Source: Candidatus Eremiobacteraceae bacterium (lineage in GTDB: Bacteria; Vulcanimicrobiota; Vulcanimicrobiia; Eremiobacterales; Eremiobacteraceae). Taken from it: DNA of 64,000 nucleotides. The stretch covers positions 1 through 64,000 of the forward strand of contig DATFYX010000002.1 of NCBI GenBank assembly GCA_035314825.1. The letters are read 5' to 3'. The position numbers and the translations under genes were made by a program. Below the pieces are notes generated by a model. That model did no database searches, had not been told where the DNA came from, and worked only from the letters and a program-made list of their open reading frames with translations. How positions within the stretch are numbered: the first letter of the stretch is position 1; each line of letters opens with the position of its first letter. Below, piece after piece: positions 17,170 to 32,378 of the stretch.

Positions 17170-17175
17170 TATAAT
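17170..17175 (+). promoter_or_regulatory. Consensus -10 box (TATAAT) of the first TonB cassette
   Basis: A perfect TATAAT overlaps the ATG at 17174, so that ATG cannot be used if this promoter is real. Translation must then start at ATG 17180 (nearly leaderless) or ATG 17219. No good -35 box is present, which suggests activator or sigma-factor dependence. Confidence 0.55.
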
Positions 17176-17179
17176 GGGT

Positions 17180-17797
17180 ATGCGCGCACGCCCGGGCGAC
17201 AACACGACGCGAAGCCTCATGCCCGTCTACCTCTGTCTGGTTGGTCTGGGCAGCATCGTCGCGCACATCGCCTCTGAGTTCTTCGCGATGGGCCCGGATG
17301 CCGACAGCATCGCGCTGTCGCCCAAACATTTGTATCTCGGCATCGCCGCGCTCGTCTGCGCTATCGTCGCGGTGCAGCAAGCCGTCGCATTGTGGCGCAG
17401 CTCCAGCAGCGGACGCGATCTCAAACGCCAGCTGCACGTCGGCCTCGAATCGCTGCCCTTCCGCGGCCGCGGCGCGTTTTACGCTTTCACCGCGGCGCTC
17501 CAGTTCGGCATCGGCCTGACGACCCAGATCGGCGAGGGCTGCCCGTTCTGCGGCCACGACATCGGCGCGGGCATCGCGGGAACCATTCTCACCGTTTTCC
17601 TCATGGCGCTCGCGGGGCGCGCCATCGGCCGGCGCCTGCCGACGATCGCAGCCGCGATCGCCGCCTTCTTCGTGCAGCCAAGTTCGCGTCCGCAGGCCTT
17701 GATCGCGACCCGCAACGTCGCCGTCCTCGGCTTGCCACGCTTCATCTGGTTCAGCCAGCTCTATAACCGCCCGCCTCCGTCCCTCTCGATAGCCTGA
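17180..17797 (+). CDS. Multi-pass membrane protein paired with a TonB receptor (copy 1)
   Basis: 205 residues if started at ATG 17180; ATG 17219 would give 192 and begins right at the first helix (PVYLCLVGLGSIVAHIASEF). About four membrane helices are visible, near 18-40, 50-75, 95-118 and 125-150. A conserved-looking His sits in VAHIASEF, and a cysteine/histidine cluster (GEGCPFCGHDIG) lies between helices 3 and 4. It resembles the protein at 22630-23301, which also directly precedes a TonB receptor. A role in metal handling at the inner membrane is inferred from the Cys/His pattern, the Fur-like site upstream and the SCO1 gene downstream. Confidence 0.72.
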   Translation: MRARPGDNTTRSLMPVYLCLVGLGSIVAHIASEFFAMGPDADSIALSPKHLYLGIAALVCAIVAVQQAVALWRSSSSGRDLKRQLHVGLESLPFRGRGAFYAFTAALQFGIGLTTQIGEGCPFCGHDIGAGIAGTILTVFLMALAGRAIGRRLPTIAAAIAAFFVQPSSRPQALIATRNVAVLGLPRFIWFSQLYNRPPPSLSIA

Positions 17798-17821
17798 CGG
17801 TCGAATAACCCAAGGACCGTC
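17796..17821. repeat. Intercistronic inverted repeat
   Basis: GACGGTC (17796-17802) and GACCGTC (17815-17821) form a 7-bp stem with a 12-base loop, starting within the stop region of the membrane-protein gene and ending 59 bases before the TonB receptor. No T-run follows; it may be an mRNA processing or stability element. Confidence 0.4.
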
Positions 17822-17880
17822 GTATCGTCGGATCGGCCGCGACAACCGCCGCGCCGTTCTATCGCGTTCGAGAGGAAATC

Positions 17881-20265
17881 ATGATGTCTATTCGCTTCTG
17901 CCGCGCGCTGTGCGCGGCGCTGACGCTGGCCGCCGTTGTCGCGGCGCCGGTCACGAGTCGTGCCGCGAGCGCCTATCTCGCAGGAAGAGTTATTGCGGAT
18001 GGCAAGCCGGTCGCAGGCGCCGCCGTCACGGCGACGGGCAATAACGTCGTACAAAAGACGAAAACCGATTCGCAAGGCTCATTCGGGTTCAGCACCCTGT
18101 CGCCCGGTACATACACGCTGAGTGCGACGGCTAGCGGTCGAAGCGGCAAGGTGACCGTCGACCTGCCGGCCAGCGGCGCGACCGTTACGCTCGAGTTGCG
18201 TGTGAAAACACTTGCGGTGGTCAACGCGAGCGCGCTGCGCACGGCGCCGGTTCGCGCGTCCGGAACGGACCTGACGATCAACTCGACCATCTTGAGCCGT
18301 ACCCCATCGGCAGGAAGCTTGCCGGAGATGCTCATCCAACTGCCGGGTGCGGCACGCGGCGCCAACGGCGTCGTGCACATCAACGGCGATCACGGCGACA
18401 TCAACTACGTGGTCGACGGCGTCTCGGTGCCGCAAGCGCTCAATCGCGTCATGGGCACTGAGTTCAACCCCGGCGACATCGCCTTCGTCGACGTGCTCGA
18501 GGGCGCGTATCCGGCGCAATATGGCGAGCGCTTCGCCTCCGTGCTCAACATCAGCACGCGCAACGCGCTCAGCATGCAGGCACCCGGCGCCTGGCTGAGC
18601 ATGCAAGGCGGATCCTTCGCCTCGTACGACGCGACGCTCGGCTACCACGATCGCGTCGGACGGGGATCGCTCGTGCTGGCGGTCGAGAACGGCAGCACGG
18701 ACCGCGGACTCGATCCTCCTAACCCGGTGTCGGTCAACAACCAAGCCAGCAACGCCAATCAGTTCTTGCGCTACACGTTGCCGTATGGGAAGGGCGGCGC
18801 CAACTTCGTGAATCTGACGGTGACGCACGCATACCGCACGTTCCAGATCCCGCTCGATATCAATGGCGGCCAGCCCGCGAGTACCGATGACGTCGAGACG
18901 CAGGACGATACGTTCGCCGCGCTCCAGTTTCGCCACGCGATCGGCGACCGCGGCGAGCTCTCGTTCGGCGGCGGATACAAACGCTCGCAGATCCGGGATT
19001 TCGGAGACCCCGTCGACGACTGGATCTACGGCGTGAACGTCAATATCGCCAACGGCGGGGCGCCGACGGACTGCTTCAACGCGTTCTCCATTCCCGCATA
19101 CACGACGACCACGTGCGGCTATTCGTTATACGACAACCGCACGGCGTACGATTACATCGCCAACATCGACTACGCGCTGAGCAGCCGGGTGCACACCGTG
19201 CGTTGGGGAGCGTCATATGACATCGCGGATGTCCCCAAGTATTACGACATCATCCTGCAGCCGGCGAACTACTTGTCGCCGCTGCTCGCGCCCGCCACGC
19301 CGCTGGCACCGTATCCCGTCATCGACAACGCGCCAAACGTCGGCCACACGGAGACGGCGTTTCTCCAGGACAGCTGGCAGATGGGGCCGCGGTACGAGCT
19401 TGACTACGGGCTGCGCTGGACCGCGTTCCAGGTCTTCTCGACGCAATTCGATCAGGGCTTCACGCAGTTCAGCCCTCGGATCAAGTTCACGCGGCTGTTC
19501 TCGGCGCGGGCCAGCGCCTACGTCTACTACGGAAGGTTCTTCACGCCGTTCTCGTTCGAGAACGTGTCGCCGTATGCGGCGTTCCTGCTCAACCTGCCGT
19601 TGCAGCCCACCCCGGCGCAGTTCGACCTTAAGCCGCAGCGCGACTCGGTCTATGAGATCGGCGGGCACCTGCCGCTCGGCGCCGGCGACCTGGGACTGCG
19701 CATCATGCAGAAGAACGCGACCGATCTGATCGACGACACGCAAGTGGGCGTCACGCTGCTGCATCAGGACATCAACTACCAACTCGGCCGCATCGCGACG
19801 CAATCCGCGTATTACCAGCAGCGGCTCGTGCGCAACGGCGAGTGGTACGTCAGCTTCAACCATACGTACTCGGTCAACAAGGGCTGCGAGACACAGCTCT
19901 TAGCCCCGTGCTTCGGCTCGCCGACGGACTGGACGCCGGCGGACCACGAGCAGCGCTGGGGCGCGACGGCCGGCGTGGTCTTCAACGACACGCGCGGCGG
20001 GTGGTTCTCGATGGACGAGGAATACGGCAGCGGCCTCTCTTCGTCGGCCTGTCCGCCCGACACGCCCGGTTTTTGCAAGTACACGCCGCACACGGTGTTC
20101 TCGTTGCAAAAGGGGTTTGGCCTTGGTCACAATGCAGCGCTGTGGGCCGGGATCGACAACTTGCTCAACAACCAGTACTGGATCACGCTTGACAATGCGC
20201 AGGGCAACCACTACGCTGCTGGACGCACGTTCGTCATGGGCGTGCGTATCGGCGCCGGCCAATGA
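17881..20265 (+). CDS. TonB-dependent outer-membrane receptor with N-terminal carboxypeptidase-regulatory-like domain (copy 1)
   Basis: 794 residues. A signal peptide ends near residue 29. A carboxypeptidase-D regulatory-like beta-sandwich follows (about 31-110: AGRVIADGKPVAGAAVTATG, then GSFGFSTLSPGTYTL). The plug domain is at about 120-230 (INYVVDGVSVPQALNR, then ADVLEGAYPAQYGERFASVLN-type strands) and the rest is beta-barrel. GAGAGGAAATC before ATG 17881 is a good ribosome-binding site. The last residues are not aromatic, which is unusual for a barrel protein. The ligand is unknown; overlap with the SCO1 gene and the Fur-like site upstream suggest a metal or metallophore, possibly copper. 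Confidence 0.88.
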   Translation: MMSIRFCRALCAALTLAAVVAAPVTSRAASAYLAGRVIADGKPVAGAAVTATGNNVVQKTKTDSQGSFGFSTLSPGTYTLSATASGRSGKVTVDLPASGATVTLELRVKTLAVVNASALRTAPVRASGTDLTINSTILSRTPSAGSLPEMLIQLPGAARGANGVVHINGDHGDINYVVDGVSVPQALNRVMGTEFNPGDIAFVDVLEGAYPAQYGERFASVLNISTRNALSMQAPGAWLSMQGGSFASYDATLGYHDRVGRGSLVLAVENGSTDRGLDPPNPVSVNNQASNANQFLRYTLPYGKGGANFVNLTVTHAYRTFQIPLDINGGQPASTDDVETQDDTFAALQFRHAIGDRGELSFGGGYKRSQIRDFGDPVDDWIYGVNVNIANGGAPTDCFNAFSIPAYTTTTCGYSLYDNRTAYDYIANIDYALSSRVHTVRWGASYDIADVPKYYDIILQPANYLSPLLAPATPLAPYPVIDNAPNVGHTETAFLQDSWQMGPRYELDYGLRWTAFQVFSTQFDQGFTQFSPRIKFTRLFSARASAYVYYGRFFTPFSFENVSPYAAFLLNLPLQPTPAQFDLKPQRDSVYEIGGHLPLGAGDLGLRIMQKNATDLIDDTQVGVTLLHQDINYQLGRIATQSAYYQQRLVRNGEWYVSFNHTYSVNKGCETQLLAPCFGSPTDWTPADHEQRWGATAGVVFNDTRGGWFSMDEEYGSGLSSSACPPDTPGFCKYTPHTVFSLQKGFGLGHNAALWAGIDNLLNNQYWITLDNAQGNHYAAGRTFVMGVRIGAGQ

Positions 20266-20918
20266 GCTTGGCGGCCTGGAAGTCGTTTGACGCGGCGGAA
20301 AAGCGCATCGTCCTGGGGGGCGCGGCGGTCTTGCTCGTCGGGATGGCATTGTGCGCCTATGCGCTGATACCTCAGCTTCGCGCGTGCGGCAATGCCTTGA
20401 ACGTCTGGCTCAGGGGCGGCACCGTGCAAGCGTCGATGGGGATCGCGGACCCACCACTGAAAGACACCGACAATCACGATTATGTCATCACCAAGCAGCC
20501 CGACGTGACGCAAGTCGTGTACTTCGGCTACACGCACTGTCCGGATGAATGCCCGACAGCCCTCAGCAAGATGGCACGGGCATATGACGAGCTTGGCCAG
20601 CCTCGCAGGCTGCGGCTGGTTTTCGTCAGCTTCGATCCGCAACGCGATACCCCACGAGTGCTCGGCGCGTATGTGCGGCGCTTCAAAGCGCCCATGGTCG
20701 GACTCGGCGGATCGACCGCTGCGGTGCGCGCCGCCATGAAGCGTTTCGGTGCCGACGCCGTGCGCATACCGCCGGAGCAGCCCGGCGCCAGCTATTCCTT
20801 CGCCCACACCAGCTCAGTGATCGTCGTGGGGCCCGACAACTCATCCGAAGCGATGTATCCGATCGAGGACATGGACGTCCACGACTTGGTGAAGACATTG
20901 CACCGCTATCTATGGTAG
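20262..20918 (+). CDS. SCO1/SenC-family copper chaperone
   Basis: 218 residues. One membrane anchor (about 16-36) is followed by a thioredoxin-like domain with the copper ligands of SCO proteins: Cys93 and Cys97 in THCPDECPTA, and His182 in SFAHTSSVIVVG. SCO1 proteins deliver copper to, or reduce, the CuA site of cytochrome c oxidase. ATG 20262 overlaps the TonB receptor stop (ATGA), so the receptor and the chaperone are co-translated. No oxidase genes are in the window. Confidence 0.92.
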   Translation: MSLAAWKSFDAAEKRIVLGGAAVLLVGMALCAYALIPQLRACGNALNVWLRGGTVQASMGIADPPLKDTDNHDYVITKQPDVTQVVYFGYTHCPDECPTALSKMARAYDELGQPRRLRLVFVSFDPQRDTPRVLGAYVRRFKAPMVGLGGSTAAVRAAMKRFGADAVRIPPEQPGASYSFAHTSSVIVVGPDNSSEAMYPIEDMDVHDLVKTLHRYLW

Positions 20919-20986
20919 GCGTGAGGAGTCGGAAGGGCGGTGGCGAAGCATGCGCCCCACCTGCCTCTCTCTTCTGAGGAGGACTC

Positions 20987-21445
20987 ATGCAAAGGGGCAA
21001 GTTTCTCGTTTGTGCACTCGCCGTCGCGGCGGCGGTCAACGGCCTAGCGACGAGCGCGACCATCGCGTGGTCGGCGGACACCCCGGTCATCGTCCAGCCG
21101 GACAACGTAAAGTGGGAACCGGTCAAGGGAATGACCGGTCTTGAGTCCGCGACGTTGTGGGGTGATCCCGACAAGGCCGGTGGCCAATATGCAATACGGT
21201 ACAAATTGCCTGACGGCTTCAAGTTCCCGCCGCACACGCACCCGCAAAGCGAACAGGTCACCGTCTTAAGCGGCACGTTCATGGTGGGCGTCGGCGACAA
21301 GGTAGACGCTGCGAAGATGCTCACCTTGCCGGCGGGATCCTACGTCGAAGTACCCGCCAACCTGCCGCACTACGCGCAAGCGAAAGGCGAGACGATTCTC
21401 GAGGTCCACGGCATCGGGCCCGACACCATCAACATGCTCAAGTAA
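20987..21445 (+). CDS. Exported cupin-domain protein
   Basis: 152 residues with a signal peptide (about 1-30, ending TIAWSADT). A single cupin domain follows, with the metal-binding motif HTHPQSEQVTVLSG near residues 84-97 and a second histidine motif (VPANLPHYAQAKG) near 125. This is the arrangement of small periplasmic cupins with unknown substrates. GAGGAGGA just before ATG 20987 is a strong ribosome-binding site. It lies 68 bases downstream of the SCO1 gene and may share its transcript. Confidence 0.85.
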   Translation: MQRGKFLVCALAVAAAVNGLATSATIAWSADTPVIVQPDNVKWEPVKGMTGLESATLWGDPDKAGGQYAIRYKLPDGFKFPPHTHPQSEQVTVLSGTFMVGVGDKVDAAKMLTLPAGSYVEVPANLPHYAQAKGETILEVHGIGPDTINMLK

Positions 21446-21479
21446 CGAGACCACTCAGGAATGACCGCGAAACCGCAGC

Positions 21480-21914
21480 TCAACCGGGCCGCGGTTTCTC
21501 ATTCCACGACCACCACACGAGATACCCGGCGGGGATGAGGGCGGCGCCGTCGCGGACCACCGTCCACCAAGTGACCGGATCGGTCTCGCGCGGTCCGAAG
21601 CAGCCGCACGGCGTCGGGATGCCGCGCATGACGACCGACGCGAGCGCCGCGATGAAGACGAGCAGCAGTGCGACCGAGACGACTGAGACGATACGCAGCT
21701 GCCAGCCCAGCAGCAGGTACAGGCCCAGCACGATTTCAAACAGCGGGAGAGCGATCGCCGAGAAGCCGACGAACCACGGCGGCAGGTCGAGCCGGAAGGC
21801 GACGATCGTCGAGCCGAGATCGGGTGCGTGGCCGACCTTGAGCACGCCGGCAGCGAGGAAGACCAGGCCGACGATGATGCGCGCGACGAGAGGTACGATT
21901 TGAAGACGGGGCAA
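21480..21914 (-). CDS. MauE/DoxX-like membrane protein
   Basis: 144 residues with four hydrophobic helices. The motifs GVLKVGHAPD near residue 22 and TPCGCFGPRETD near 103 are typical of the MauE/DoxX group, whose members support periplasmic thiol-disulfide chemistry together with thioredoxin-like partners. The only in-frame start is TTG 21914, preceded by GAAGG. It is divergent from the TlpA-like gene at 21948, which supports a shared redox role. Confidence 0.8.
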   Translation of the reverse strand: MPRLQIVPLVARIIVGLVFLAAGVLKVGHAPDLGSTIVAFRLDLPPWFVGFSAIALPLFEIVLGLYLLLGWQLRIVSVVSVALLLVFIAALASVVMRGIPTPCGCFGPRETDPVTWWTVVRDGAALIPAGYLVWWSWNEKPRPG

Positions 21915-21947
21915 TCGACACGACCTTCAGACACGGCACCAAGCGGT

Positions 21948-22541
21948 ATGCCGCTGCGGACCATTTTGCCGATAGTTCTCGGCGTCCTCGTCGTCGGCGC
22001 GATCATCATCTACGCGTGGACGCAGATGCACAAGCTGCCCAGCGCGGCGGTCGCGCCCAACGCGATCCCATCGGTGCCTCCGCCGCACAAGGAAGGCAGC
22101 CTGGCGCCGGCATTTTCTTTGCAGACGCCGCTCGGTCCGATAAGCAACGACACATTCGCCGGCAAGCCGTACATGCTCGAGCTGTTCGCGACGTGGTGTC
22201 CGCATTGCCAACGCATGACGGCCGTGTTGCGCTCGCTGCGCGCCAAGCTGCCCGAGTCGCGTTTCGGCATGGTATCTGTCACCGGCTCGCCCTATGGTGC
22301 AGGTTCGACCGAAGGCAGCCCGGTCGCCGAGAGTCAGGCAGATGTGGATCAGTTCGACAAGTATTTCAACATCACGTGGCCGTCGGCGTTCGATCCCGAT
22401 CTCAAGGTCGCGCAGACGTGGGGGCTCGATGGTTTTCCCACGATCTACATCGTGAACGCCAAGGGCACGATCGTCTTCGCCGGCAGCGGGGAGATGCCGG
22501 AGTCGCGCTTGCTGGAGGCCGCTCGCAAGGCCGGCGCGTGA
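21948..22541 (+). CDS. Membrane-anchored TlpA/ResA-like thioredoxin
   Basis: 197 residues. An N-terminal membrane anchor (about 5-25) precedes a thioredoxin fold with the active site WCPHC in LFATWCPHCQRM and the cis-Pro segment GLDGFPTIYIVN. Such proteins reduce disulfides outside the membrane, for example in cytochrome c or CuA maturation. The start is uncertain: ATG 21948 has a weak site, while TTG 21900 has GAGAGG five bases upstream and would add 16 residues, overlapping the start of the MauE-like gene on the other strand. Confidence 0.88.
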   Translation: MPLRTILPIVLGVLVVGAIIIYAWTQMHKLPSAAVAPNAIPSVPPPHKEGSLAPAFSLQTPLGPISNDTFAGKPYMLELFATWCPHCQRMTAVLRSLRAKLPESRFGMVSVTGSPYGAGSTEGSPVAESQADVDQFDKYFNITWPSAFDPDLKVAQTWGLDGFPTIYIVNAKGTIVFAGSGEMPESRLLEAARKAGA

Positions 22542-22618
22542 GGGCGGCCACAGGCTTTCTGAGAATCGGCTGAAGCCGCTTCGCGGGGTCGGCGGAGGTA
22601 GCACCTCGCGCTTAGCCG

Positions 22619-22624
22619 TATAAT
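22619..22624 (+). promoter_or_regulatory. Consensus -10 box immediately before a start codon
   Basis: TATAAT at 22619-22624 is followed by only five bases (ATCAA) and then the ATG at 22630. Transcription from it would begin at or next to the start codon, giving a leaderless mRNA. No clear -35 is seen. Confidence 0.55.
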
Positions 22625-22629
22625 ATCAA

Positions 22630-23301
22630 ATGGCTCGCCGGGACGTCTGCTGGCTGCTCATCGGGGCGATCGCGCTGATCGCGTCGCTGTTGGGCCACGC
22701 GCTGCAACTGCACATCGAGTCCGCGCACCTGTTCGGCACGGTGCGCGCGCTGTACAGCCACTCGCTGCAGACGCCGTTCGCGTACATCGCCTTCGGCCTC
22801 TTGCTCGTGTCGGCGCTGTTCATCGCGCGCGGAATCATCGAAAGCGTCCGCGACGAGTTCGACGGCGCCGATTGGCTGCTGCCCGCGCTCGATGCCGTGC
22901 GCTCGATATCGCCGGGCCGGCTGGTCGCCATCGTCGTCGGATTGCAGCTCACATCGCTCACGGTCGGTGAGTTGTCCGAACAGGCGCTCTCGTCGTACGA
23001 TGGTTTCGGCCTCGGCGCGATCTTCGGCCCCGGTCACTTGAGCGCTCCGTTCGTCCACATCGCGGTCGGTGCCGTTCTGGCGCTGGCGCTGCGCGCGTTC
23101 GCGCGCGCGGCCTGCGAGCGCGTCGCAGACATCGCGAGCTTCGTCCTCGTCGTGATCGGCCGGCTCGCTCAGCCGGCACCCGTGAACTGTGCTCCGGCGC
23201 TGCGCATCCTGTCGCTGCGCGCGCAGACCACCTCCCCACCGCTGCTGGCGCGCCACATCGCCAGCCGTCCTCCTCCGGTTCGCGCTGCCCTTGTAGCATA
23301 G
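22630..23301 (+). CDS. Multi-pass membrane protein paired with a TonB receptor (copy 2)
   Basis: 223 residues with about four membrane helices, near 8-28, 50-72, 95-120 and 138-160. Histidines are placed as if to bind metal (SLLGHALQLHIESAHLFG in helix 1, LYSHSL, FGPGHLSAPFVHIAVG). It aligns by eye along most of its length with the protein at 17180-17797, for example VGLQLTSLTVGELSEQ with AALQFGIGLTTQIGEG, and it too directly precedes a TonB receptor. I recognise no named family. A TATAAT box five bases before ATG 22630 suggests a leaderless transcript. Confidence 0.72.
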   Translation: MARRDVCWLLIGAIALIASLLGHALQLHIESAHLFGTVRALYSHSLQTPFAYIAFGLLLVSALFIARGIIESVRDEFDGADWLLPALDAVRSISPGRLVAIVVGLQLTSLTVGELSEQALSSYDGFGLGAIFGPGHLSAPFVHIAVGAVLALALRAFARAACERVADIASFVLVVIGRLAQPAPVNCAPALRILSLRAQTTSPPLLARHIASRPPPVRAALVA

Positions 23302-23359
23302 GCGGCCAAAACCGGCTTCCCGCCCTTTGGCCGCCACCTTACTCGGTGGAGGCCTTTCC

Positions 23360-25630
23360 ATGCGTTTTTCTTTCTTGTATTTCTTGGCGTGCATCGCGCT
23401 GGTCGCGGCGATGGCGACGATCGACTGTCTCGCTCCGGCTGCCGCTAGCACGCTTGGCGCGATCCGCGGCGCTGTCGTCGACGATGCGCAACACCCCGTG
23501 GTGCACGCCGCGGTCGTCGCCCAAAGCGGCGAGGGCAGCAAGCAGACGACGACCACCGACAGCGCCGGCCAATACGTCTTCCCGCGCCTTCCCTTCGACA
23601 CGTACACCGTGACCGTCACGGCCGCCGGTCTCGGCGCGCAGAGCGGCGTCGCGACGGTCACCAGCGGCAGCGCCGTCGTGCTGGACTTCCATCTTTCCAA
23701 GAAGACGCTCGCCACGGTCACTGCGGTCGCCAAAGCCGGGCATCCCGTGAGCGTCACGGTGCTCACGCCGCAGATGATCCAGACGCTCCCCGACAACTTC
23801 AAGCTGGCGCACGTGACGCAGACGGTGCCGGGCGTGGTGCCGTTCTCGTACGACGAGCCCGTGGCGCGCGGCTTCCATGGCATCTCGTATCAGATCGACG
23901 GCGTGCCGGTCCCGGACACGACGTCATCGTCGTTCTCCGAAGTGCTCGATCCGCGCGATGTCGGTTCGCTCGAGGTTTACACAGGATCGTTCCCAGCGGA
24001 GTTCGGCGGCAGCCGCATGGGCGGACTGGTCAACATCATCACCAAGCGGCCGTCGAGCAATGGCGGCGATGTCGTGCTGACCGGCGGCAACTACGCATCC
24101 GGTGGCACGCAGATCAGCGATCTGTTCGGGGGCGAGGCATTCAAGGCATACGTCTCGCTCAATCTTCAACGCAGCGATCGAGGCCTCGACACACCGACGC
24201 CCGATCCGCCCGTGCATGACGCCGCAAGTTCGAGCAATGAGTTCATGCGCCTGACCTACGAGCCCGACAAGCGCGATTCGTGGGCGCTGCATTTCTCCAA
24301 CCAGTTGGCGACGTTCCAGATCCCGATCGATACCGACCCTTCCAGCGTCAGCTTCTCGCCGCCCGGCACCGACGACAACCAGTACGAGTACAACCAATAC
24401 GCCAACATCATCTTCAACCGGCTAAGCGCCGACGGACAAGGCTACCTTGAGATCGCGCCGTGGTACAACCGCACGCAGGTCAAGTTCTTTCCCGATCCTG
24501 TGAACGATCTCGCCAGCGCGGCGATGGCATCTACGTTCCAGGACCGGGTCGGGACGTATTACGGCCTCACCACGGCATGGTTCCGCACGGACCCCAAAGA
24601 CAACATCAAGACGGGCTTCACCGCCTACACGGAAAATTTCGCAAGCCAGTTCAACATCCAGTTCATCGATTCGATGGGGATGCAGCAGCGCTTCGACGAC
24701 AACGTCGCGCAGACGGGCACCAACTTTGGCATCTACGCCGAAGACAAACGCATCCTGTCGCCGGTGTTCAGCGCCAACGTCGGCTTGCGCTACGATCGCT
24801 CCACGGGTTTCACGTCCGGCAACCAGGTGAGCCCGCGCATCGAGATCGACGCGCAGGCCCTCAATCCCAGCGACACGCTGCACGTCTACTACGGCCGGCT
24901 CTACGCGGCGCCGGCGCTTGAGGACACGCGCCGCTCTGCGGTCGTCATAAGCGGCGGCAACGGCCTGCCGGTCTACGACCTCAAACCCGAAACCGACTCG
25001 ATCTACGAATTCGGCTTCTCGCATCAGATGACGCCGACGGCGAAATGGTACGTCAACTACTGGGCGCGTGCGGTGGCGAACGTGCTCGACACGACGCAGA
25101 TCGGCTCGACGCCGATCTTCACGATTTTCAATTCGACGTCGGGTCGCGCACAGGGAGTCGAGTTCAGCTTCAGCGGCCAGACCCCGGGCAACGGCGACAG
25201 CTACTTTCTGTCCTATGGTCTCTCGCAAAGTCTCGCGTCAGGCATCTCGGGCGGCACGTTTCTGTTCTCGCCCGCCGATCTCCAGGGTGCGAATGGCTAT
25301 GCGCTCGAGGACCACGACCAGACCAACACGCTCAATGCGGGCTACACCTGGCGCTTCGCGCCCGACCGCTCGACGTATGCCAGCCTGCAGACCGAATACG
25401 GCAGCGGTTTCCCGGTGCAGTTCGAGAACGGCCAAGGACGGCTGCCGGCGCACTGGACGCTCAACGCGTCGTATGGACGCTTCGCATCGCGCGGACGGCT
25501 CGGCTATCAGATCCAGGCGACCAACATCACGAACAACCAATACCTGATCAAGCTCAATAACGGGTTCAACACGACGCAGTACGCGCGCGGACTGCAGATC
25601 ACCGGGCAGATCACCGCGCCCATCCTGTGA
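23360..25630 (+). CDS. TonB-dependent outer-membrane receptor with N-terminal carboxypeptidase-regulatory-like domain (copy 2)
   Basis: 756 residues. The signal peptide ends near 31 (LAPAAAS). A carboxypeptidase-regulatory-like domain follows at about 33-112, then a plug at about 125-235 (YQIDGVPVPDTTSSSFSEVL, FPAEFGGSRMGGLVNIITKR) and a long barrel. ATG 23360 is chosen because GGAGG lies 9 bases upstream; the frame opens at 23327 without such a site. It has the same architecture as the receptor at 17881 and the same kind of neighbour upstream. The substrate is unknown; the adjacent metal transport genes suggest a metal complex. Confidence 0.88.
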   Translation: MRFSFLYFLACIALVAAMATIDCLAPAAASTLGAIRGAVVDDAQHPVVHAAVVAQSGEGSKQTTTTDSAGQYVFPRLPFDTYTVTVTAAGLGAQSGVATVTSGSAVVLDFHLSKKTLATVTAVAKAGHPVSVTVLTPQMIQTLPDNFKLAHVTQTVPGVVPFSYDEPVARGFHGISYQIDGVPVPDTTSSSFSEVLDPRDVGSLEVYTGSFPAEFGGSRMGGLVNIITKRPSSNGGDVVLTGGNYASGGTQISDLFGGEAFKAYVSLNLQRSDRGLDTPTPDPPVHDAASSSNEFMRLTYEPDKRDSWALHFSNQLATFQIPIDTDPSSVSFSPPGTDDNQYEYNQYANIIFNRLSADGQGYLEIAPWYNRTQVKFFPDPVNDLASAAMASTFQDRVGTYYGLTTAWFRTDPKDNIKTGFTAYTENFASQFNIQFIDSMGMQQRFDDNVAQTGTNFGIYAEDKRILSPVFSANVGLRYDRSTGFTSGNQVSPRIEIDAQALNPSDTLHVYYGRLYAAPALEDTRRSAVVISGGNGLPVYDLKPETDSIYEFGFSHQMTPTAKWYVNYWARAVANVLDTTQIGSTPIFTIFNSTSGRAQGVEFSFSGQTPGNGDSYFLSYGLSQSLASGISGGTFLFSPADLQGANGYALEDHDQTNTLNAGYTWRFAPDRSTYASLQTEYGSGFPVQFENGQGRLPAHWTLNASYGRFASRGRLGYQIQATNITNNQYLIKLNNGFNTTQYARGLQITGQITAPIL

Positions 25631-25651: not shown

Positions 25652-26305
25652 CTACTGCGCGGTGTTCGCCTGGTTGTGCAGGTAGGCGTTGATGAACGAC
25701 TCGATCTTGGCCTGATCGAGCGTGTCGAGCGTGCCAAGGCGCGTCCATGCGGTCAGCGCGATCTTATGCTTCATGCCCGGGTACGGCGCGACCACGACCG
25801 ATTCGCCGGCTTCCTCCGCGCCCTGCACCTGCGCCGGTGATGCCTGGAGTTGATCCGGCGGGATGAGCCGGCTGTCGTACTTGTACGCGATCTGGTAGAG
25901 CGCGCCGGCGATATCCGGGCAGTTGCAGTTGTACTGCAATAGCACGTTGCCGTGCTCGAGCAGGTGGGCCTGGACGTATGCGGGCAGCGGCGTCGCGTTG
26001 TTGAACGACGTGCTGAAGGCTTCTTTATGCGGGCCTGAGGTCGGCGGATCCGAATTGTAGGCGAACTTCGTCGATTCGCCCTCGTCGAAGTGGCGATGGC
26101 CTTGGGACGGATAGTGCGTGCCAAGGAACTGCAACGTGATCGTCTGCGGGGCGGTGCTCGCCGACGCGGCGCTGGGCGCCGCGGCTGAGGATGAGGATGG
26201 TGGGCTTGCGTCGCCGCCGCCGCTCTTGGAACAGCCGCCCAGCAGCAGAGGACCGGCGAGCAGCAGCGCGGCGAACACGGCGGCGCGCGCGATCGTCTTC
26301 ATCAT
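25652..26305 (-). CDS. DUF3105 lipoprotein
   Basis: 217 residues with a lipoprotein signal (LLLGGC, Cys25). A Ser/Ala/Pro-rich linker is followed by a DUF3105 domain: FAYNSDPPTSGPHKEAF, then AHLLEHGNVLLQYNCNCPD and VVAPYPGMKHKIALTAWTR. The CNC within the normally non-cysteine region after LEHG is unusual. ATG 26305 overlaps the stop of its paralogue upstream. Function of DUF3105 is not established; conserved His, Glu and here two Cys suggest a metal site. It is the last gene of the dtxR-nramp run and converges on the TonB receptor. Confidence 0.82.
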   Translation of the reverse strand: MMKTIARAAVFAALLLAGPLLLGGCSKSGGGDASPPSSSSAAAPSAASASTAPQTITLQFLGTHYPSQGHRHFDEGESTKFAYNSDPPTSGPHKEAFSTSFNNATPLPAYVQAHLLEHGNVLLQYNCNCPDIAGALYQIAYKYDSRLIPPDQLQASPAQVQGAEEAGESVVVAPYPGMKHKIALTAWTRLGTLDTLDQAKIESFINAYLHNQANTAQ

Positions 26306-26997
26306 TGCGCTGCGTTCGTCGTATTCGAGAGGTACGCGTTGATGAATCGGATCATCTTGGCTTGATCGATCGAATCGAACGGCTCCAGGCGCGTCCAGGC
26401 GGTCAGCGCGATCTTGTATTTCATCGGCGGGTACGGCGCGACGATCACGCCCTTGCCGTATTCTTCGATGCGCTGGATATCATCGGACGAGAGCTGGGTC
26501 TCGCCGGGAGACAGCTGCTGGTTGTTGTAGCTCGACGCGATCTGCGCGAGCGCGCCGGCGATGTCCGGGCACTTGCAGTTGTACTGCATGAGCACGTTGC
26601 CGTGTTCGAGCAGATGGACTTGCAGATATTTCGGCAGCGGCGTCGCGTTGATGAGCAGGGGCGAGAACTGCTCCAAATGCATCCCGGACGTCGGCGGATC
26701 CGAGTTGTACGCGAACGTGGCGACCCCGGGTTGCTTCGGATCGGTCTTGTCATGGCCCGGATGCCCTTGGGGTTTAAAATGCATGCCGGGAGTCTCGGCC
26801 GGGCGCGGCAGCGGCGTCGCGGTCGGCGTCGCCGTCGCCGCTGGCCCGAGCGCCACCGGGGCGTTGCGATGCGTGACCGCGAGCGCGATCAGCGCGATCA
26901 GACCGACGACGACCAGCACGCCGAAGCCGAGCGTCATGATGCGGCCGGTTGGATCGACCGGCGCCGGCGTTGGATTTTTCGACATCGGGCGCGTCAT
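26302..26997 (-). CDS. DUF3105 membrane-anchored protein
   Basis: 231 residues. One membrane helix (about 21-43) anchors a DUF3105 domain facing outwards: FAYNSDPPTSGMHLEQF, VHLLEHGNVLMQYNCKCPD and VIVAPYPPMKYKIALTAWTR. It is a clear paralogue of the next gene, also with a CxC motif (CKC). ATG at 26997 may be replaced by ATG 26985 (MSKNP). The tandem arrangement, one copy membrane-anchored and one a lipoprotein, suggests they work on the same extracytoplasmic substrate. Confidence 0.82.
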   Translation of the reverse strand: MTRPMSKNPTPAPVDPTGRIMTLGFGVLVVVGLIALIALAVTHRNAPVALGPAATATPTATPLPRPAETPGMHFKPQGHPGHDKTDPKQPGVATFAYNSDPPTSGMHLEQFSPLLINATPLPKYLQVHLLEHGNVLMQYNCKCPDIAGALAQIASSYNNQQLSPGETQLSSDDIQRIEEYGKGVIVAPYPPMKYKIALTAWTRLEPFDSIDQAKMIRFINAYLSNTTNAAQ

Positions 26998-27024: not shown

Positions 27025-27156
27025 TTAGTGAAGCGCTTTGACGAATGCGTACACGACAAGCGGCACAGCGATCAAGACGTAGATGCGCAGCACCCACAAC
27101 AGCGCCGTTATCCCCGGGCTGAGCTTGCGACGGCCGAAGCGCGGTGTACCGTTCAC
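27025..27156 (-). CDS. 43-residue single-span membrane peptide
   Basis: GTG 27156 overlaps the stop of the Nramp-like gene by four bases (GTGA), and the frame ends at TAA 27025. The peptide has a basic N-terminus (NGTPRFGRRKLSPG), one hydrophobic helix (ITALLWVLRIYVLIAVPLVV) and a short tail (YAFVKALH). Coupling to the transporter and the clear membrane helix make a real gene likely; it could be a small transporter-associated subunit. No homologue recognised. Confidence 0.62.
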   Translation of the reverse strand: MNGTPRFGRRKLSPGITALLWVLRIYVLIAVPLVVYAFVKALH

Positions 27157-28505
27157 TTCGGGATCACCTGCGGGAACACGGTGATGACCCCGTACGCACT
27201 GCCCATCAGCGCGATCGCGATGACGATGGCGCCGCCGATAAGGTTGCTCTTCGGACCGTTGGCGAGCGATCCGATGACCTCGCGATCGTTGGCCAGCAGC
27301 AACAGGAAGAGCAGCGCCGGCGCCATGAGCAGCGTGGCGATGACGTTGACCGCGATGGTGATCGCCAGCAGCGGCGCGTGCGGGATGAGCACGACGGCGG
27401 CGGCGAGTGCCACGGACGCGGCCAAGGACACGTAGAACGCTCGTGCACTGGAGAAACTCGCATTGAGGCTGTGCTTGGCGCGCAGCACTTCGCCGACCGC
27501 ATAGGCGGAGCTGGTCGAGATCGTCATCGCCGCGACCAGCCCGGCCTCGATCATGCCGAGCGCGAACAACGCGGCCCCGACGCTTCCGATGTACGGGTGC
27601 AACGCGGTCGCGAAATCAGCGCCGCCGGCGAACGTCGACGCGACGACGTGGTGCGTGAACAACGGCACGGCTGCCAGGACCGCGGCGATCGCCGCCACGG
27701 CGGCCACGAGCGCGCCCAGCGCGGTGTCGAATCTGCCTTGCGGCAGATCAGCGGCAGTCAACCCTTTGTCAACCACGGCGCTTTGCTGGAAGAAGATCAT
27801 CCATGGCGTGACGGTCGCGCCCACGTCGGCCATGAGCAAGGTGACGAAGCCGGCCGTCACGCCGCCTGCAAGCGGGCTCCACGTGCCGAAAGCGCGGGCG
27901 ACGGCCGCCGCGTCGGGATGCGCGAACATCGCGGCCGGCACGAATAAGAGATTGAACGCCGCCAGGACGAGCACAGCGCGCTCCCAGGTGAAGTAGCGCC
28001 GCGCGCTCACCATGAGGAGCACCAGCGCCGCGCCGACGCCGACCGCGATCGGCGCGGAGATGCCGAAATACGCGGCCCCGGCCCGGATGGCGATGAACTC
28101 GGTGATCAGCGTGAGGATGTTGCCGATCGCGAGATCGAGCATCGAGAAATATCCCCAGAAGGGTCCGAAGCGCTCGAAGATCAGTTCGGCATGGCCGCAG
28201 CGCGTCGCGATGCCCAGCCGGACGGTCATCTCCTGCACGACGAACGCCATCGCGAACGTCAGGACGATGAACGGCAGGAAGAAGCCGATGCCGTAGGCCG
28301 CGCCGGTCGTCGCATACGACAGCATGCTCGGGCCGTCGTTCTCGCCCAGCATGACCAAGATACCGGGGCCCGCCAGCAAGAAGAACAGCCACAGCGGCCG
28401 GTGGCTCGCGCGCGCCTGCGCGACGCGCTGTCTATCGAGCGAACGCAGTTGTTCATCGCGGGCGTCGAGCTCCGTGAATTCCGCCGGCCTGGCGATGTCA
28501 CTCAC
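27153..28505 (-). CDS. Nramp-family metal transporter with altered metal-site motifs
   Basis: 450 residues and about 11 membrane helices, with the Nramp pattern through the middle. The helix-1 motif, normally DPGN, reads NDGPS (56-60). The helix-6 motif, normally MPHN, reads TPWM (233-236), so the metal-coordinating Met is Thr. Classical Nramp proteins import Mn2+ or Fe2+ with protons; loss of the Met is associated with harder ions in characterised relatives. ATG 28505 overlaps the dtxR-like stop by 8 bases, so regulator and transporter are co-expressed. Confidence 0.85.
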   Translation of the reverse strand: MSDIARPAEFTELDARDEQLRSLDRQRVAQARASHRPLWLFFLLAGPGILVMLGENDGPSMLSYATTGAAYGIGFFLPFIVLTFAMAFVVQEMTVRLGIATRCGHAELIFERFGPFWGYFSMLDLAIGNILTLITEFIAIRAGAAYFGISAPIAVGVGAALVLLMVSARRYFTWERAVLVLAAFNLLFVPAAMFAHPDAAAVARAFGTWSPLAGGVTAGFVTLLMADVGATVTPWMIFFQQSAVVDKGLTAADLPQGRFDTALGALVAAVAAIAAVLAAVPLFTHHVVASTFAGGADFATALHPYIGSVGAALFALGMIEAGLVAAMTISTSSAYAVGEVLRAKHSLNASFSSARAFYVSLAASVALAAAVVLIPHAPLLAITIAVNVIATLLMAPALLFLLLLANDREVIGSLANGPKSNLIGGAIVIAIALMGSAYGVITVFPQVIPK

Positions 28506-29169
28506 GGCGGGTACGCTCCACGAGCACCGCGTCGACGATTGCAGCTGCGAGCGTGACCTCGGCGCCGCGCACGCGCAGCGTGGTCGTGCGCGGCGTGCGA
28601 TTCAGGATCTTCACATCGGAGCCGGGCAGCAAGCCGTGACGCGAGAGCGCGCGCACGACGCGTGCGTCGCGATCCGCGATGCGCGTGATGCGCATCGTGC
28701 GGCCGACCGGTGCTTGCGCGAGCGGCCCGTCGCGGCGGCCCTTTCCACCGGTGCCGGGGATGAGATCGCCGTGGGGGTCGAACTGCGGGTGGCCGAGCAG
28801 GTGCTCGAGCCGCTTCGCGACGTCGTCGGAGATCACGTGCTCGATGCGCTCGGCTTCGGCATGAAGGCGCTCCAGCGGCACGCCCAACGCCTGATGCAAG
28901 AAGGTCTCGACGATGCGATGGCGGCGCACCACCGCGAGCGCGAGCTTGCCGCCTTTGGCGCTGAGCTGCAACTGACCGCCGCCCAGCGCGCGCACGTAGC
29001 CGCGGCGCTGCAGATCGCGCGCAAGCTTGCTCACCGATGCGCGCGACACGCCGAGCCGGCGCGCGACGTCGGCCGGCTTGACGGGCTGGCCGTCGCCGAG
29101 CTGAAGGATGGCTTTGCAGTAGTCCTGTCGCGCGCGTTCGGGCGAGCGGTCCTGTCCTGTGTTAACCAT
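28498..29169 (-). CDS. DtxR/MntR-family metal-dependent repressor
   Basis: 223 residues: winged helix-turn-helix (about 14-70, DVARRLGVSRASVSKLARDL), a metal-binding/dimerisation domain (about 75-140, with RRHRIVETFL and AERIEHVISDD supplying the usual His, Glu, Glu-His ligands) and a FeoA/SH3-like C-terminal domain (about 150-222). In the first helix the MntR Glu11 position reads Lys (QDYCKAI), so one ligand may be missing. ATG 29169 lies inside a tandem palindrome that looks like its own operator. It heads the nramp-DUF3105 operon. Confidence 0.9.
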   Translation of the reverse strand: MVNTGQDRSPERARQDYCKAILQLGDGQPVKPADVARRLGVSRASVSKLARDLQRRGYVRALGGGQLQLSAKGGKLALAVVRRHRIVETFLHQALGVPLERLHAEAERIEHVISDDVAKRLEHLLGHPQFDPHGDLIPGTGGKGRRDGPLAQAPVGRTMRITRIADRDARVVRALSRHGLLPGSDVKILNRTPRTTTLRVRGAEVTLAAAIVDAVLVERTRRE

Positions 29170-29192
29170 GGCTAACGTCAACCATGGTTAAC
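29161..29192. promoter_or_regulatory. Tandem 16-bp palindromic operator over the dtxR-like start
   Basis: Two abutting 16-mers, 29161-29176 and 29177-29192, are each a one-mismatch version of the perfect palindrome GTTAACCATGGTTAAC. They cover the start codon and the bases just upstream. Size, symmetry and the TTAACC/GGTTAA half-sites fit DtxR/MntR/SirR operators, so autoregulation by the adjacent repressor is the natural reading. Confidence 0.8.
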
Positions 29193-29224
29193 TATCGGGG
29201 CCGGCACCGCCTGCCGAAGGTTTC

Positions 29225-29674
29225 TTAGGTGTGAGCCTCGTCCGGCGCGCAACGCCGGCACAGTCCGTAGAACTCCAGGCGGTGGCGGCGCAGCTGGAAA
29301 CGCAGCTGCTGGGCCAGGGTCCGCGCGAAGCGGTCCACCGAGCCGCACGGCACGTCGTCGACCTTGCCGCACTCGACGCACACCGCGTGGTGGTGATGCT
29401 GCGCGGGCGGACAGAACAGATACGACGCCTCGCCGTGGTCGCCCGGCTCGCGCGCGGCCGCCCCGATCTTCTCAAGGACCTCGAGCGTGCGGTAGACGGT
29501 GGCCAACGCGACGCCGGGATGCCGGCGCGCGAGGCGCTCGTGCAGCTCTTGCGGCGTCACGTAGCGTCGCAGGCGCGTGAACTCGCCGACGATGGCTTTG
29601 CGCTGGCTCGTCATGCGGCAGCCAGCGCGGGCGAGCTCGGTGTGGACGGCGCCTTCGACCTCGGTCGCGCTCAT
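29225..29674 (-). CDS. fur: Fur-family metalloregulator
   Basis: 149 residues. A winged helix (TPQELHERLARRHPGVALATVYRTLEVL in two parts, about 38-70) is followed by the metal/dimer domain with the HHHH cluster (AQHHHHAVCVECGKV) and two zinc CxxC motifs (CVEC and CRRC). Whether it senses iron, zinc or manganese cannot be told; gene order with a Zn/Mn-type ABC importer favours Zn or Mn. ATG 29674 overlaps the permease stop, so it is the last gene of the importer operon. The Fur-like box at 32364-32388 upstream of that operon would give feedback control. Confidence 0.92.
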   Translation of the reverse strand: MSATEVEGAVHTELARAGCRMTSQRKAIVGEFTRLRRYVTPQELHERLARRHPGVALATVYRTLEVLEKIGAAAREPGDHGEASYLFCPPAQHHHHAVCVECGKVDDVPCGSVDRFARTLAQQLRFQLRRHRLEFYGLCRRCAPDEAHT

Positions 29675-30543
29675 CGCGCCGCCTGCTCCTGCTGCGCGTG
29701 GCGGCGCGCTTCGAGCACCTGCGTGAGCAGCGAGCGACGCTTGGGCGAGAGCGCCATCGCTGCGAAGAAGCACAGCGTGGCGGTGAGCACGATCGTGGAC
29801 CCGGATGCGGCGTTGAGATAATACGACGCATACAGCCCGACCACGGCCGATCCGACGCCGATGCACGCCGAGGTGGCCATCATCGGCCCGAAACGATTGG
29901 TCAGCTGATATGCCGCCGCGGCCGGCGTGACCAGCAGCGCCGCGACGAGCACGATCCCCGCCGCCTGAAGCGACACGACGATGGTCACCGCAAGGATGAC
30001 GAGCAGCAGATTGCTCAGCGCGGTCGTCGGCAGGCCGCTCGCCTGCGCCATGAGCGGATCAAACGACGCGAACAGCAGCTCTTTGTACAGCGCGAAGATC
30101 ACGAGCAGCACGCCGATCGTGAGGCTGGCGACGAGGAAGATGTCGGTGCGGTCGACCGAGAGGACGTTGCCGAACAAGAAGTCCTGCAGATCGACGATAT
30201 AGTTCCGCGCACGCGACATGAGCAGTACGCCGAGCGCGAAGACGGCGGTGAACATGACGCCGATCGCGGTGTCGGTCGAGACTTCGGAGCGACGGCTGAT
30301 GGCGCCGATGCCCAGCGCGGTGAGGATGGCCACGATGAGCCCGCCGACGTACAAGTTGGCCTTGAACAGATATGCGATCACGATGCCGGCGAAGGACGCA
30401 TGCGCGATGCCGTCGCCGATGAACGAAAGGTTGCGCAACACCACGTACACGCCGACCACGCTGCACACCAGACCGATGAGCGTGGACGCGATGAGCGCGC
30501 GCACCATGAACTCTTGTTGCAGCGGCGCGAGCAACCAGTCCAT
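29671..30543 (-). CDS. ABC metal importer permease (ZnuB/MntB type)
   Basis: 290 residues with about eight membrane helices. Family motifs include VLRNLSFIGDGIAHASFAG near residue 36 and the AAGIVLVAALLVTPAAAAYQ segment near 200, typical of the ABC-3 family (ZnuB, MntB, TroC). It forms the channel of a Zn2+/Mn2+ importer with the neighbouring ATPase and binding protein. Three bases separate it from the ATPase gene; its stop overlaps fur. Confidence 0.93.
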   Translation of the reverse strand: MDWLLAPLQQEFMVRALIASTLIGLVCSVVGVYVVLRNLSFIGDGIAHASFAGIVIAYLFKANLYVGGLIVAILTALGIGAISRRSEVSTDTAIGVMFTAVFALGVLLMSRARNYIVDLQDFLFGNVLSVDRTDIFLVASLTIGVLLVIFALYKELLFASFDPLMAQASGLPTTALSNLLLVILAVTIVVSLQAAGIVLVAALLVTPAAAAYQLTNRFGPMMATSACIGVGSAVVGLYASYYLNAASGSTIVLTATLCFFAAMALSPKRRSLLTQVLEARRHAQQEQAAR

Positions 30544-30546
30544 GGG

Positions 30547-31455
30547 CTAGAGCTGCGCCGAACGGACGGCGGCTTGGGCCTCGGGGATGACGAGCACGTG
30601 GCTGCCGAACGTCGCCGACAGCGTCGCATCGGTGAGCACCTCGGTCGGCGGGCCGTATGCGATCACGCGGTGGTTGAGGCACAGCACTTTATCGAACCAG
30701 GTGGCGACGCACGAGAGGTCGTGCGTGGTCGCGACGATGGTCATGCCCTTCTTCTTGCGCTCCTCGAGCAGGGTGAAGATCGCATGCTGGCTGGTCGCGT
30801 CGACGCCTGCGATCGGCTCGTCGAGCAGCAGCAGCTGCGGGTTCTGCACGAGCGAGCGCGCGACGAACACGCGCTGTTGCTGGCCCCCGGAAAGCTCGCC
30901 GATCTGCGATGCCGCGTGATCGGCCATGCCAACTTCTTCGAGCGCGGCCATCGCCGCGCGCTTTTCGGTCTCGCCGGGGCGCCGGAACAGCCCGAGCTTG
31001 CCGTAGACGCCCATGAGCACGACGTCAAAGACCGTGACTGGGAATGACCAATTGACGTCTTCGGTCTGCGGCACGTAGCCGACGCCCGGGCCATGGCCGG
31101 GCGGCGCGCCGAGCACTTCGATCAATCCGCACTGCGGTTCCAATAAACCGGCGATCACTTTGAGCAGCGTCGACTTGCCCGAGCCGTTTGGGCCGATGAT
31201 GCCGACGAACTCACCGCGCACGACCTCGAAGCTGATCTCGTCGAGCACGTCGCGGCCGAAATAGCCCGCGCACATGCCCTCGCACAGGATCGCCGTGCCC
31301 GCCGGGGCCTTGCCCGCCTGGTGCCGCGCGGGATGGTGATCGGCGTGTCGATGAAGATGCGGCGCAACGGCAGGGACCGCGTGGCTGTGATCTTGCGGCG
31401 CGACCGGTGCCGCTGGATCGACGTGCGTGTGGTCGTGCTCGTGGAGTTCGCTCAT
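30547..31455 (-). CDS. ABC metal importer ATPase with His-rich N-terminal extension
   Basis: 302 residues, about 45 more than usual. The extra N-terminus contains 12 histidines between residues 5 and 45 (for example HEHDHTH and HLHRHADHH). The ATPase follows: Walker A GPNGSGKST (88-96), signature LSGGQQQR and Walker B LLLLDEPIAGVD, then the switch His in TTHD. ZnuC/MntA-like ATPases drive import; His-rich tracts in such systems normally store or sense Zn2+ or Ni2+, usually in the binding protein. ATG 31455 overlaps the stop of the binding-protein gene (ATGA). Confidence 0.93.
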   Translation of the reverse strand: MSELHEHDHTHVDPAAPVAPQDHSHAVPAVAPHLHRHADHHPARHQAGKAPAGTAILCEGMCAGYFGRDVLDEISFEVVRGEFVGIIGPNGSGKSTLLKVIAGLLEPQCGLIEVLGAPPGHGPGVGYVPQTEDVNWSFPVTVFDVVLMGVYGKLGLFRRPGETEKRAAMAALEEVGMADHAASQIGELSGGQQQRVFVARSLVQNPQLLLLDEPIAGVDATSQHAIFTLLEERKKKGMTIVATTHDLSCVATWFDKVLCLNHRVIAYGPPTEVLTDATLSATFGSHVLVIPEAQAAVRSAQL

Positions 31456-32378
31456 CTCAAAGCCTGCACGATCGTGTCGACGTCATAGTGCATCATCCCC
31501 TCGTAGGTCTGGAGCTGCGGCGTGGTGCCAAGCGTATCGTCGTAGAGATCGCTCACCGTCTTGATGCCGGCGCTTGTGGCGAGCGCCTGCGCGAGCTTGG
31601 GCGAGAACTGCGGCTCGGCGAACACCGCGCGCACGTGATTGGCGCGCGCCTGCGCGATGAGCGCGGACAGATACGCCGCTGAGGGCTGCTGGCCCGGCGA
31701 TGGTTCGATGGCTCCGATGTCGCGCAAGCCGTAACGCTGGTCGAAATAATACCACGCATCGTGGAACGTGAGCATCGTGCGATTGGCTTGCGGGATGGTC
31801 GCGATCTGTTCGCGGATCCACGCGTCGAGCGCGCGCAGCCGCGCGGTCTCGCGCGTTTCATTCGCGCTGTAGTATGCCGCGTTGGGCGGGTCGACGTCGC
31901 GCAATGCCGCCGCGATCTTATGCACGTACACTTGCGCGTACGTCACATCCAGCCACAGGTGCGGGTTGCCGGGCTCGCCTGCGGCTTTGGCCCCCTCGAC
32001 CGGCATGCCATCCGATAGCACGATCACTTTGGTGCCCGGCTTGGCGACGTTGCGCAGGACCTTGTCGAGCCACAGCTCCAGACCGGCGCCGTTCTTGATG
32101 ATGAGTTGAGCATTCGCCAGCGCCACGAGGTCTTGCGGCGACGGATCGTAGGTCTCGGGTGATGCGCCGATAGGCACGATGCTGATGACATCGGCCTTAT
32201 CGCCGCCGACGGCTTGCGCCAGCGCTTGGATGGTCGAGATCGTGGCGGCCGCCTGGACGCGCCGACTGCCTGCCGGCGAAGGCTCCGCGGCGGGCTTTTG
32301 AGACGAACAGCCCGCGCAAAGTACCGCAAACGCCAGCGCACCGGAGGCCGCGTACGGCCGAACCTTATCGAGAATCAT
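31452..32378 (-). CDS. Metal-binding lipoprotein of ABC importer (ZnuA/TroA family)
   Basis: 308 residues; signal peptide with a lipobox-like CAGC at 21-24. Cluster A-I binding protein: His140 (GNPHLWLDV), His206 (FHDAWYYF) and an Asp in DLYDDTLG fit the Zn-type site. The first ligand, normally His in a PHxY segment, is Glu75 (SPETYDPSPQD). There is no His-rich loop; the His-rich stretch is on the partner ATPase instead. ATG 32378 has no Shine-Dalgarno sequence and is read from an apparently leaderless promoter that overlaps a Fur-like palindrome. Confidence 0.9.
   Translation of the reverse strand: MILDKVRPYAASGALAFAVLCAGCSSQKPAAEPSPAGSRRVQAAATISTIQALAQAVGGDKADVISIVPIGASPETYDPSPQDLVALANAQLIIKNGAGLELWLDKVLRNVAKPGTKVIVLSDGMPVEGAKAAGEPGNPHLWLDVTYAQVYVHKIAAALRDVDPPNAAYYSANETRETARLRALDAWIREQIATIPQANRTMLTFHDAWYYFDQRYGLRDIGAIEPSPGQQPSAAYLSALIAQARANHVRAVFAEPQFSPKLAQALATSAGIKTVSDLYDDTLGTTPQLQTYEGMMHYDVDTIVQALR

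Follow-up and report, generated by a model that had tools for sequence, protein, structure and literature searches.

A Duplicated Cassette of Small Membrane Proteins and TonB Receptors

The window analysed here is a 64,000-nucleotide stretch of contig DATFYX010000002.1 from a Candidatus Eremiobacteraceae bacterium (host genome 2.5 Mb, 97% complete). It carries a duplicated cassette, in which two small membrane proteins, A1 (17174..17797, + strand, 207 amino acids) and A2 (22630..23301, +, 223 amino acids), each lie directly 5' of a related TonB-dependent receptor on the same strand, as a first-pass annotation of this DNA had recognized. Both open reading frames scored as coding with a codon-usage gene caller trained on these loci, and we discuss them here as putative arrest-peptide upstream open reading frames (uORFs) of their receptors, R1 (17881..20265, +) and R2 (23360..25630, +). 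R2 was restarted at the ATG at 23360 rather than the TTG at 23327, because a Shine-Dalgarno (SD) sequence, GGTGGAGG (23345..23352, +), precedes the ATG. The receptors are paralogues over their full length (26% identity, E 2e-44). They had been described as sharing one domain design, which holds for the carboxypeptidase-regulatory-like domain in both and for the clear plug and barrel of R2, while the R1 plug, at 23.4 bits, falls just short of the Pfam cut-off of 23.9.

Direct BLAST of A1 against A2 gave no match. Profile-profile comparison, using relatives gathered from the same bacterial class, aligned about 190 columns in register with 93-95% probability (E ~1e-7). A reversed control scored 0.6%, and none of nine other membrane families exceeded 1.8%. 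When the shared C-terminus was left out, the match dropped to 34% (E 4e-4), still higher than every control, and the A2 profile matched A1 members directly (best E 3e-9). These alignments support the view that A1 and A2 are distantly related four-transmembrane (4-TM) proteins, the homology that the annotation had presumed. Its remark that it recognized no named family for them also stood, as searches of Pfam, NCBIfam, and PDB sequences returned nothing above threshold. The only transporter-family match was a sub-threshold hit to Sulfate_transp (16.6 vs 23.2 bits), with no PDB relative, and tblastn in plasmids gave no match.

Hydropathy and weak AlphaFold models concur on four TM helices in A1 and A2. 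Family members mostly have three to five hydrophobic segments, with about 50 residues between TM4 and the arginine of the C-terminal motif described below, and the C-terminal tail is predicted from charge to be cytosolic. Foldseek of the A2 model against the PDB found nothing credible (best E 0.47); its top match, an ExbB-like energiser, had a probability of 0.13 and was rejected. The loop between TM3 and TM4 of A1 contains CPFCGHD, a C-x-x-C-x-H arrangement whose cysteines are gone in several distant relatives, and no A2 cysteine falls in a conserved column of the wider A2 family. The Cys/His loop clusters that had been taken to point to metal were not confirmed as conserved in both families.

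A C-terminal RxPP Motif

The strongest feature of A1 and A2, which the earlier annotation did not remark on, is an RPPP sequence near the C-terminus of both, 5-7 residues before the stop. Its codons lie at 17768..17779 (+) in A1, where the motif is invariant among relatives with an intact C-terminus, and at 23266..23277 (+) in A2. R-[P/A/G/S]-P-P followed by 3-11 residues to the end was found in 70 of the 74 A1/A2 family members, and R-x-P-P is the most conserved part of the families, above any intramembrane residue. The same four-residue motif occurred 8 times among 909 other proteins of the same loci, three times C-terminally, and RAPP was depleted in these proteins (1 seen, 8 expected). Two of the three stray C-terminal matches belong to a third 4-TM family.

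By sequence, the motif corresponds to the core element of RAPP-type arrest peptides, on which the ribosome halts when the third residue is in the P-site (PMC10987492, PMC10951233). RPPP is partly permissive for arrest in ApdA/ApdP (PMC12992588), and it is the strongest XPPP stall in Escherichia coli NlpD without EF-P (PMC4176338).

Tail Codons Complementary to the Downstream Shine-Dalgarno Sequence

The codons from the motif to just beyond it complement the SD region of the cognate downstream gene. Across 67-68 uORF/gene pairs, the mean longest complement was 6.66 nucleotides (nt) for cognate and 4.79 nt for swapped partners (z 14.5), and the duplex energies were -17.7 and -13.3 kcal/mol (z -13.2). 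For comparison, 211 ordinary codirectional gene pairs from these loci gave z values of 0.1 for match length and -1.1 for energy. The signal persisted after dereplication to 39 pairs (z 9.1) and with the motif codons excluded (z 8.1).

In a scan along the uORF 3' end, the signal was strongest at nt 6-23, counted from the Arg codon (z 16.5); it was absent upstream and zero past nt 23, though most tails extend further. For matches of at least 8 nt, the pairing position tracked the Arg codon (standard deviation 3.3 nt) rather than the stop codon (6.5 nt). Toeprint spacing is usually 16-17 nt, so that a ribosome holding the third codon (nt 6-8) in its P-site would have its leading edge at about nt 22-23. 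A ribosome stalled at the third motif codon would therefore be expected to cover the complementary stretch, which never reaches beyond this footprint. Masking the stalled-ribosome stretch raised the predicted SD accessibility from 0.25 to 0.40, compared with 0.38 to 0.41 in ordinary pairs (p 3e-8 for the difference).

In the window, CCTCTCGA (17782..17789, +) in the A1 tail forms the anti-SD strand, an 8-bp complement of TCGAGAGG (17868..17875, +) in the SD region of R1. In A2, the RPPP codons pair with the R2 SD around a conserved hairpin, with a CCTCC inside the codons as the paired element in the minimum-energy fold. This perfect 10-bp hairpin, GGCGGCCAAA/TTTGGCCGCC (23301..23335, +), separates A2 from R2. 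It is kept in a sister genome (L043), so the leader may have a second lock between the A2 stop and the R2 SD. A CCACC/GGTGG stem also holds the R2 SD. An Rfam scan of 16-27 kb of the window gave no match.

Gene Neighbourhood across the Class

Profile searches over 117 genomes of the class found A1-type proteins in 25 and A2-type proteins in 74, the latter often in several copies. A codirectional downstream gene is present for 68 of the 70 motif-bearing members; the other two have no codirectional neighbour in the stretch. Among the A1 relatives with an intact motif (n = 22), 19 precede a TonB receptor, two precede CusA-type RND pump operons, and one lies 3' of a sigma/anti-sigma pair. About half of the A2 relatives have a TonB receptor as the next gene and 15 a LytR-CpsA-Psr gene; others are followed by an operon with CopC and CopD-cytochrome c, by cytochrome c and multicopper oxidase, by CsoR, or by DJ-1 and then an SCO-like gene. 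The A1-R1 and A2-R2 units are back to back in most of the family.

Both A1 relatives upstream of CusA-type RND efflux operons (L056:8015-8608 and L060:8053-8655) lack C-x-x-C and recall CzcI before czcCBA. The relative beside the ECF sigma/zf-HC2 anti-sigma pair lies directly 3' of it (L057:1206-1772); the four-TM arrest peptides of Streptomyces likewise neighbour sigma-factor genes. The host genome itself holds a further A2 paralogue (L133:6360-6983, on G000:C78), which ends in GERAPP and precedes a gene of a LytR-CpsA-Psr cluster.

The third 4-TM family, reached from the two stray C-terminal matches, was held out from the A1/A2 analysis and served as a separate sample. It occurs in 57 of the 117 genomes (example loci L052:7573-8154 and L173-L192). 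All 21 members fetched carry R-P-P-P at the C-terminus, many within a string such as RRRFARPPP; an initial stricter filter, which retained 5 of the 21, was replaced. Tail/SD pairing again lay well over swapped pairs (z 5.4), and most members precede a protein whose start resembles the regulatory domain of the receptors. Profile alignment with A1 and A2 runs over the whole length of the family at ~89% probability; support is weaker against A1 and A2 profiles trimmed of their C-terminus. Its conserved histidines follow the patterns HA..YG..H..GG.YH and E-PHH. The presumed linkage of homologues to TonB receptors accordingly held for most A1 relatives, about half of the A2 relatives, and most of the third family, and the rest precede other, mostly copper, genes.

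A Candidate Arrest-Peptide Switch and Its Alternatives

We consider that A1 and A2 are very probably regulatory uORFs, that is, polytopic nascent-chain arrest peptides of the RAPP kind that switch the downstream receptor in a SecM/CutF-like manner. They share several features with RxPP arrest uORFs: a conserved C-terminal motif, a codirectional next gene, TM segments with a long tail, and an mRNA coupling element. From the motif, the gene order, and the co-variation of codons and SD at a set distance from the motif, we infer the arrest itself, its ligand, and its polarity as follows. By the time the ribosome reaches the last codons, the four helices would already be in the membrane, with about 50 residues of cytosolic tail in the ribosome tunnel, and R-P-P-P could halt translation when the third motif codon occupies the P-site. 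After release and departure of the ribosome, the codons from the motif onward would pair with the downstream SD and turn the receptor off; a stalled ribosome would cover exactly these codons, freeing the SD and turning the receptor on together with downstream copper-chaperone genes. The insertion or folding of the helix bundle during translation would presumably govern release, which may be tuned by a ligand bound close to the periplasmic side, with copper or another transition metal the likeliest. In the case of importers, stalling would be the state of the apo sensor, as in CruR, where copper relieves arrest (PMC9426467), and detoxification genes would show the reverse polarity, as proposed for CutF (PMC9973294). 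Copper is a reasonably probable choice of ligand because of the gene context, which includes SCO1, CopC, CopD, CusA-type RND, multicopper oxidase, and CsoR.

Several points weigh against this interpretation. EF-P can relieve a stall at RPPP alone, and when natural RAPP-like sequences of E. coli and Bacillus subtilis were tested, most gave no arrest (PMC10987492). The structure models are weak (pLDDT 55 for A1 and 69 for A2, from four input sequences per protein), and conservation of the metal ligands is not strict. In the window, the models give a modest rise in SD accessibility, which depends on the folding window chosen: 0.34 to 0.38 or 0.20 to 0.46 for R1, and 0.13 to 0.22 for R2, where a local hairpin still holds part of the SD. 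Furthermore, the whole A1-R1 leader is not exceptionally stable (z -0.7), and the 15 LytR-CpsA-Psr contexts of A2 relatives have no metal link.

The first-pass annotation had proposed that each small protein is a dedicated inner-membrane partner of its receptor, perhaps a metal permease or sensor. The conserved pairing with TonB receptors fits a partner or permease handling the imported metal, with the motif incidental, as does the conservation of polar and His/Cys residues within or close to the periplasmic loops. The same families, however, precede unrelated genes (CusA-type pumps, CopC/CopD, multicopper oxidase, CsoR, and LytR-CpsA-Psr genes), and the retention of the small protein while its partner gene varies favours a controller over a subunit. 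R-x-P-P outranks the intramembrane residues in conservation, its flanking codons co-vary with the SD, and no transporter family was matched. Because the downstream genes vary and the most conserved element is an arrest motif co-varying with the SD, this reading is probably wrong, and we rate it as very improbable; the sensor and metal parts of the proposal are supported in spirit, whereas the partner or permease part is not. Plain translational coupling, in which the last uORF codons sequester the SD and any translating ribosome opens it with no programmed stall, would account for the pairing by itself. It leaves the conservation of R-x-P-P unexplained, and the pairing tracks the Arg codon, not the stop, and ends at the leading edge expected of a stalled ribosome; we hold this to be very improbable as well.

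An arrest peptide that senses the status of protein insertion or export, like MifM and SecM, would differ from the metal-tuned switch in its signal alone and is the chief alternative to copper. The polytopic architecture, the LytR-CpsA-Psr and generic TonB-receptor contexts, and the lack of invariant metal ligands are consistent with such a signal, but the neighbours are chiefly copper genes rather than sec or yidC, and A1 has its C-x-x-C-x-H and the third family its conserved His set. A sensor of this kind is somewhat unlikely, while deserving serious consideration. Starting from the metal-tuned arrest switch, we tentatively suggest a wider picture, a class-wide, multi-paralogue superfamily of Eremiobacteria in which metal binding to the half-made four-helix bundle might tune the pull on RxPP. 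Its Cys, Glu/His, and His-rich subfamilies might read different signals and control different TonB receptors or copper genes.

Comparison with Known Arrest Peptides

This kind of control is already established by CruR, CutF, and the four-TM peptides of Streptomyces (PMC12992588). CruR is the DUF2946 uORF of the TonB receptor gene bfrG in Bordetella pertussis (PMC9426467), with arrest shown in PMC12992588. It resembles A1 and A2 as a small uORF directly 5' of a TonB receptor in a copper context, with C-x-x-C (as in A1) and a C-terminal R-x-P-P a few residues before the stop. It differs as an exported protein that acts through Rho-dependent termination, whereas A1 and A2 have four TM helices, RPPP, and SD pairing instead. 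The C-x-x-C of CruR lies 45 residues before RAPP, and C126 of A1 about 72 residues before R199; A2 lacks C-x-x-C. CutF, from cutFOG of Rhodobacter capsulatus, precedes a multicopper oxidase (PMC9973294). It is likewise a uORF with a proline-rich C-terminus and copper genes downstream, and its translation has been proposed to unfold a stem-loop in which the downstream SD is hidden (PMC9973294). CutF has one signal sequence and C-x-x-x-C, unlike the polytopic A1 and A2, whose own last codons form the anti-SD strand. A1 and A2 also differ from both in DUF2946 (Pfam PF11162), which no member of either alignment matched at E 1 and which was not found in the host genome.

In Streptomyces lividans, arrest was shown in vitro and in vivo for SLIV_18480, SLIV_27375, and SLIV_33595/33605 (PMC12992588). 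Compared by described features, not sequence, these peptides share four predicted TM helices, a C-terminal RxPP, and codirectional downstream genes, including metal-related and sigma-factor genes. They carry RAPP or RGPP only, come from an actinomycete, and do not precede TonB receptors, and SD pairing is not described there. ApdA, ApdP, and SecM have a comparable core, R-[A/G]-[P/G]-P, on which ribosomes stall when its third residue is in the P-site, and they regulate a downstream gene (PMC10987492, PMC10951233). What they monitor is Sec/YidC capacity, and in place of a four-helix bundle they carry a signal sequence. Almost all receptor uORFs in the published survey were found to have a signal sequence.

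The new elements here are the superfamily, the placing of polytopic uORFs 5' of TonB receptors, the RPPP class, and a codon/SD co-variation anchored at the predicted stall codon; we found no earlier report of these points in the literature searched, whose coverage excluded subscription papers and preprints. Arrest-peptide control would thereby take in polytopic proteins encoded 5' of TonB receptors, a phylum for which no such report was found, and RPPP, a variant that the published RAPP/RGPP survey does not include. An "unknown membrane protein before a TonB receptor" becomes a testable gene switch with more than 80 natural variants. With near-nucleotide precision and no experiment, the stall site can be predicted from how the tail codons co-vary with the ribosome-binding site of the next gene, and the pairing test could help to locate arrest peptides in other genomes.

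Other Genes in and around the Cassette

Between R1 and A2 lie an SCO1/SenC copper-chaperone gene (20262..20918, +), whose start overlaps the R1 stop, and genes for a cupin-domain protein (20987..21445, +), a MauE/DoxX-family membrane protein (21480..21914, -), and a TlpA/ResA-like thioredoxin-fold protein (21948..22541, +; start uncertain). The cassette is followed by tandem DUF3105 proteins with C-N-C or C-K-C (25652-26997), which adjoin it in several relatives too. Further 3', at 27153-32378, inspection by eye indicated an NRAMP-type transporter, DtxR-type and Fur-type regulators, and an ABC metal importer; these metal genes are partly kept in relatives.

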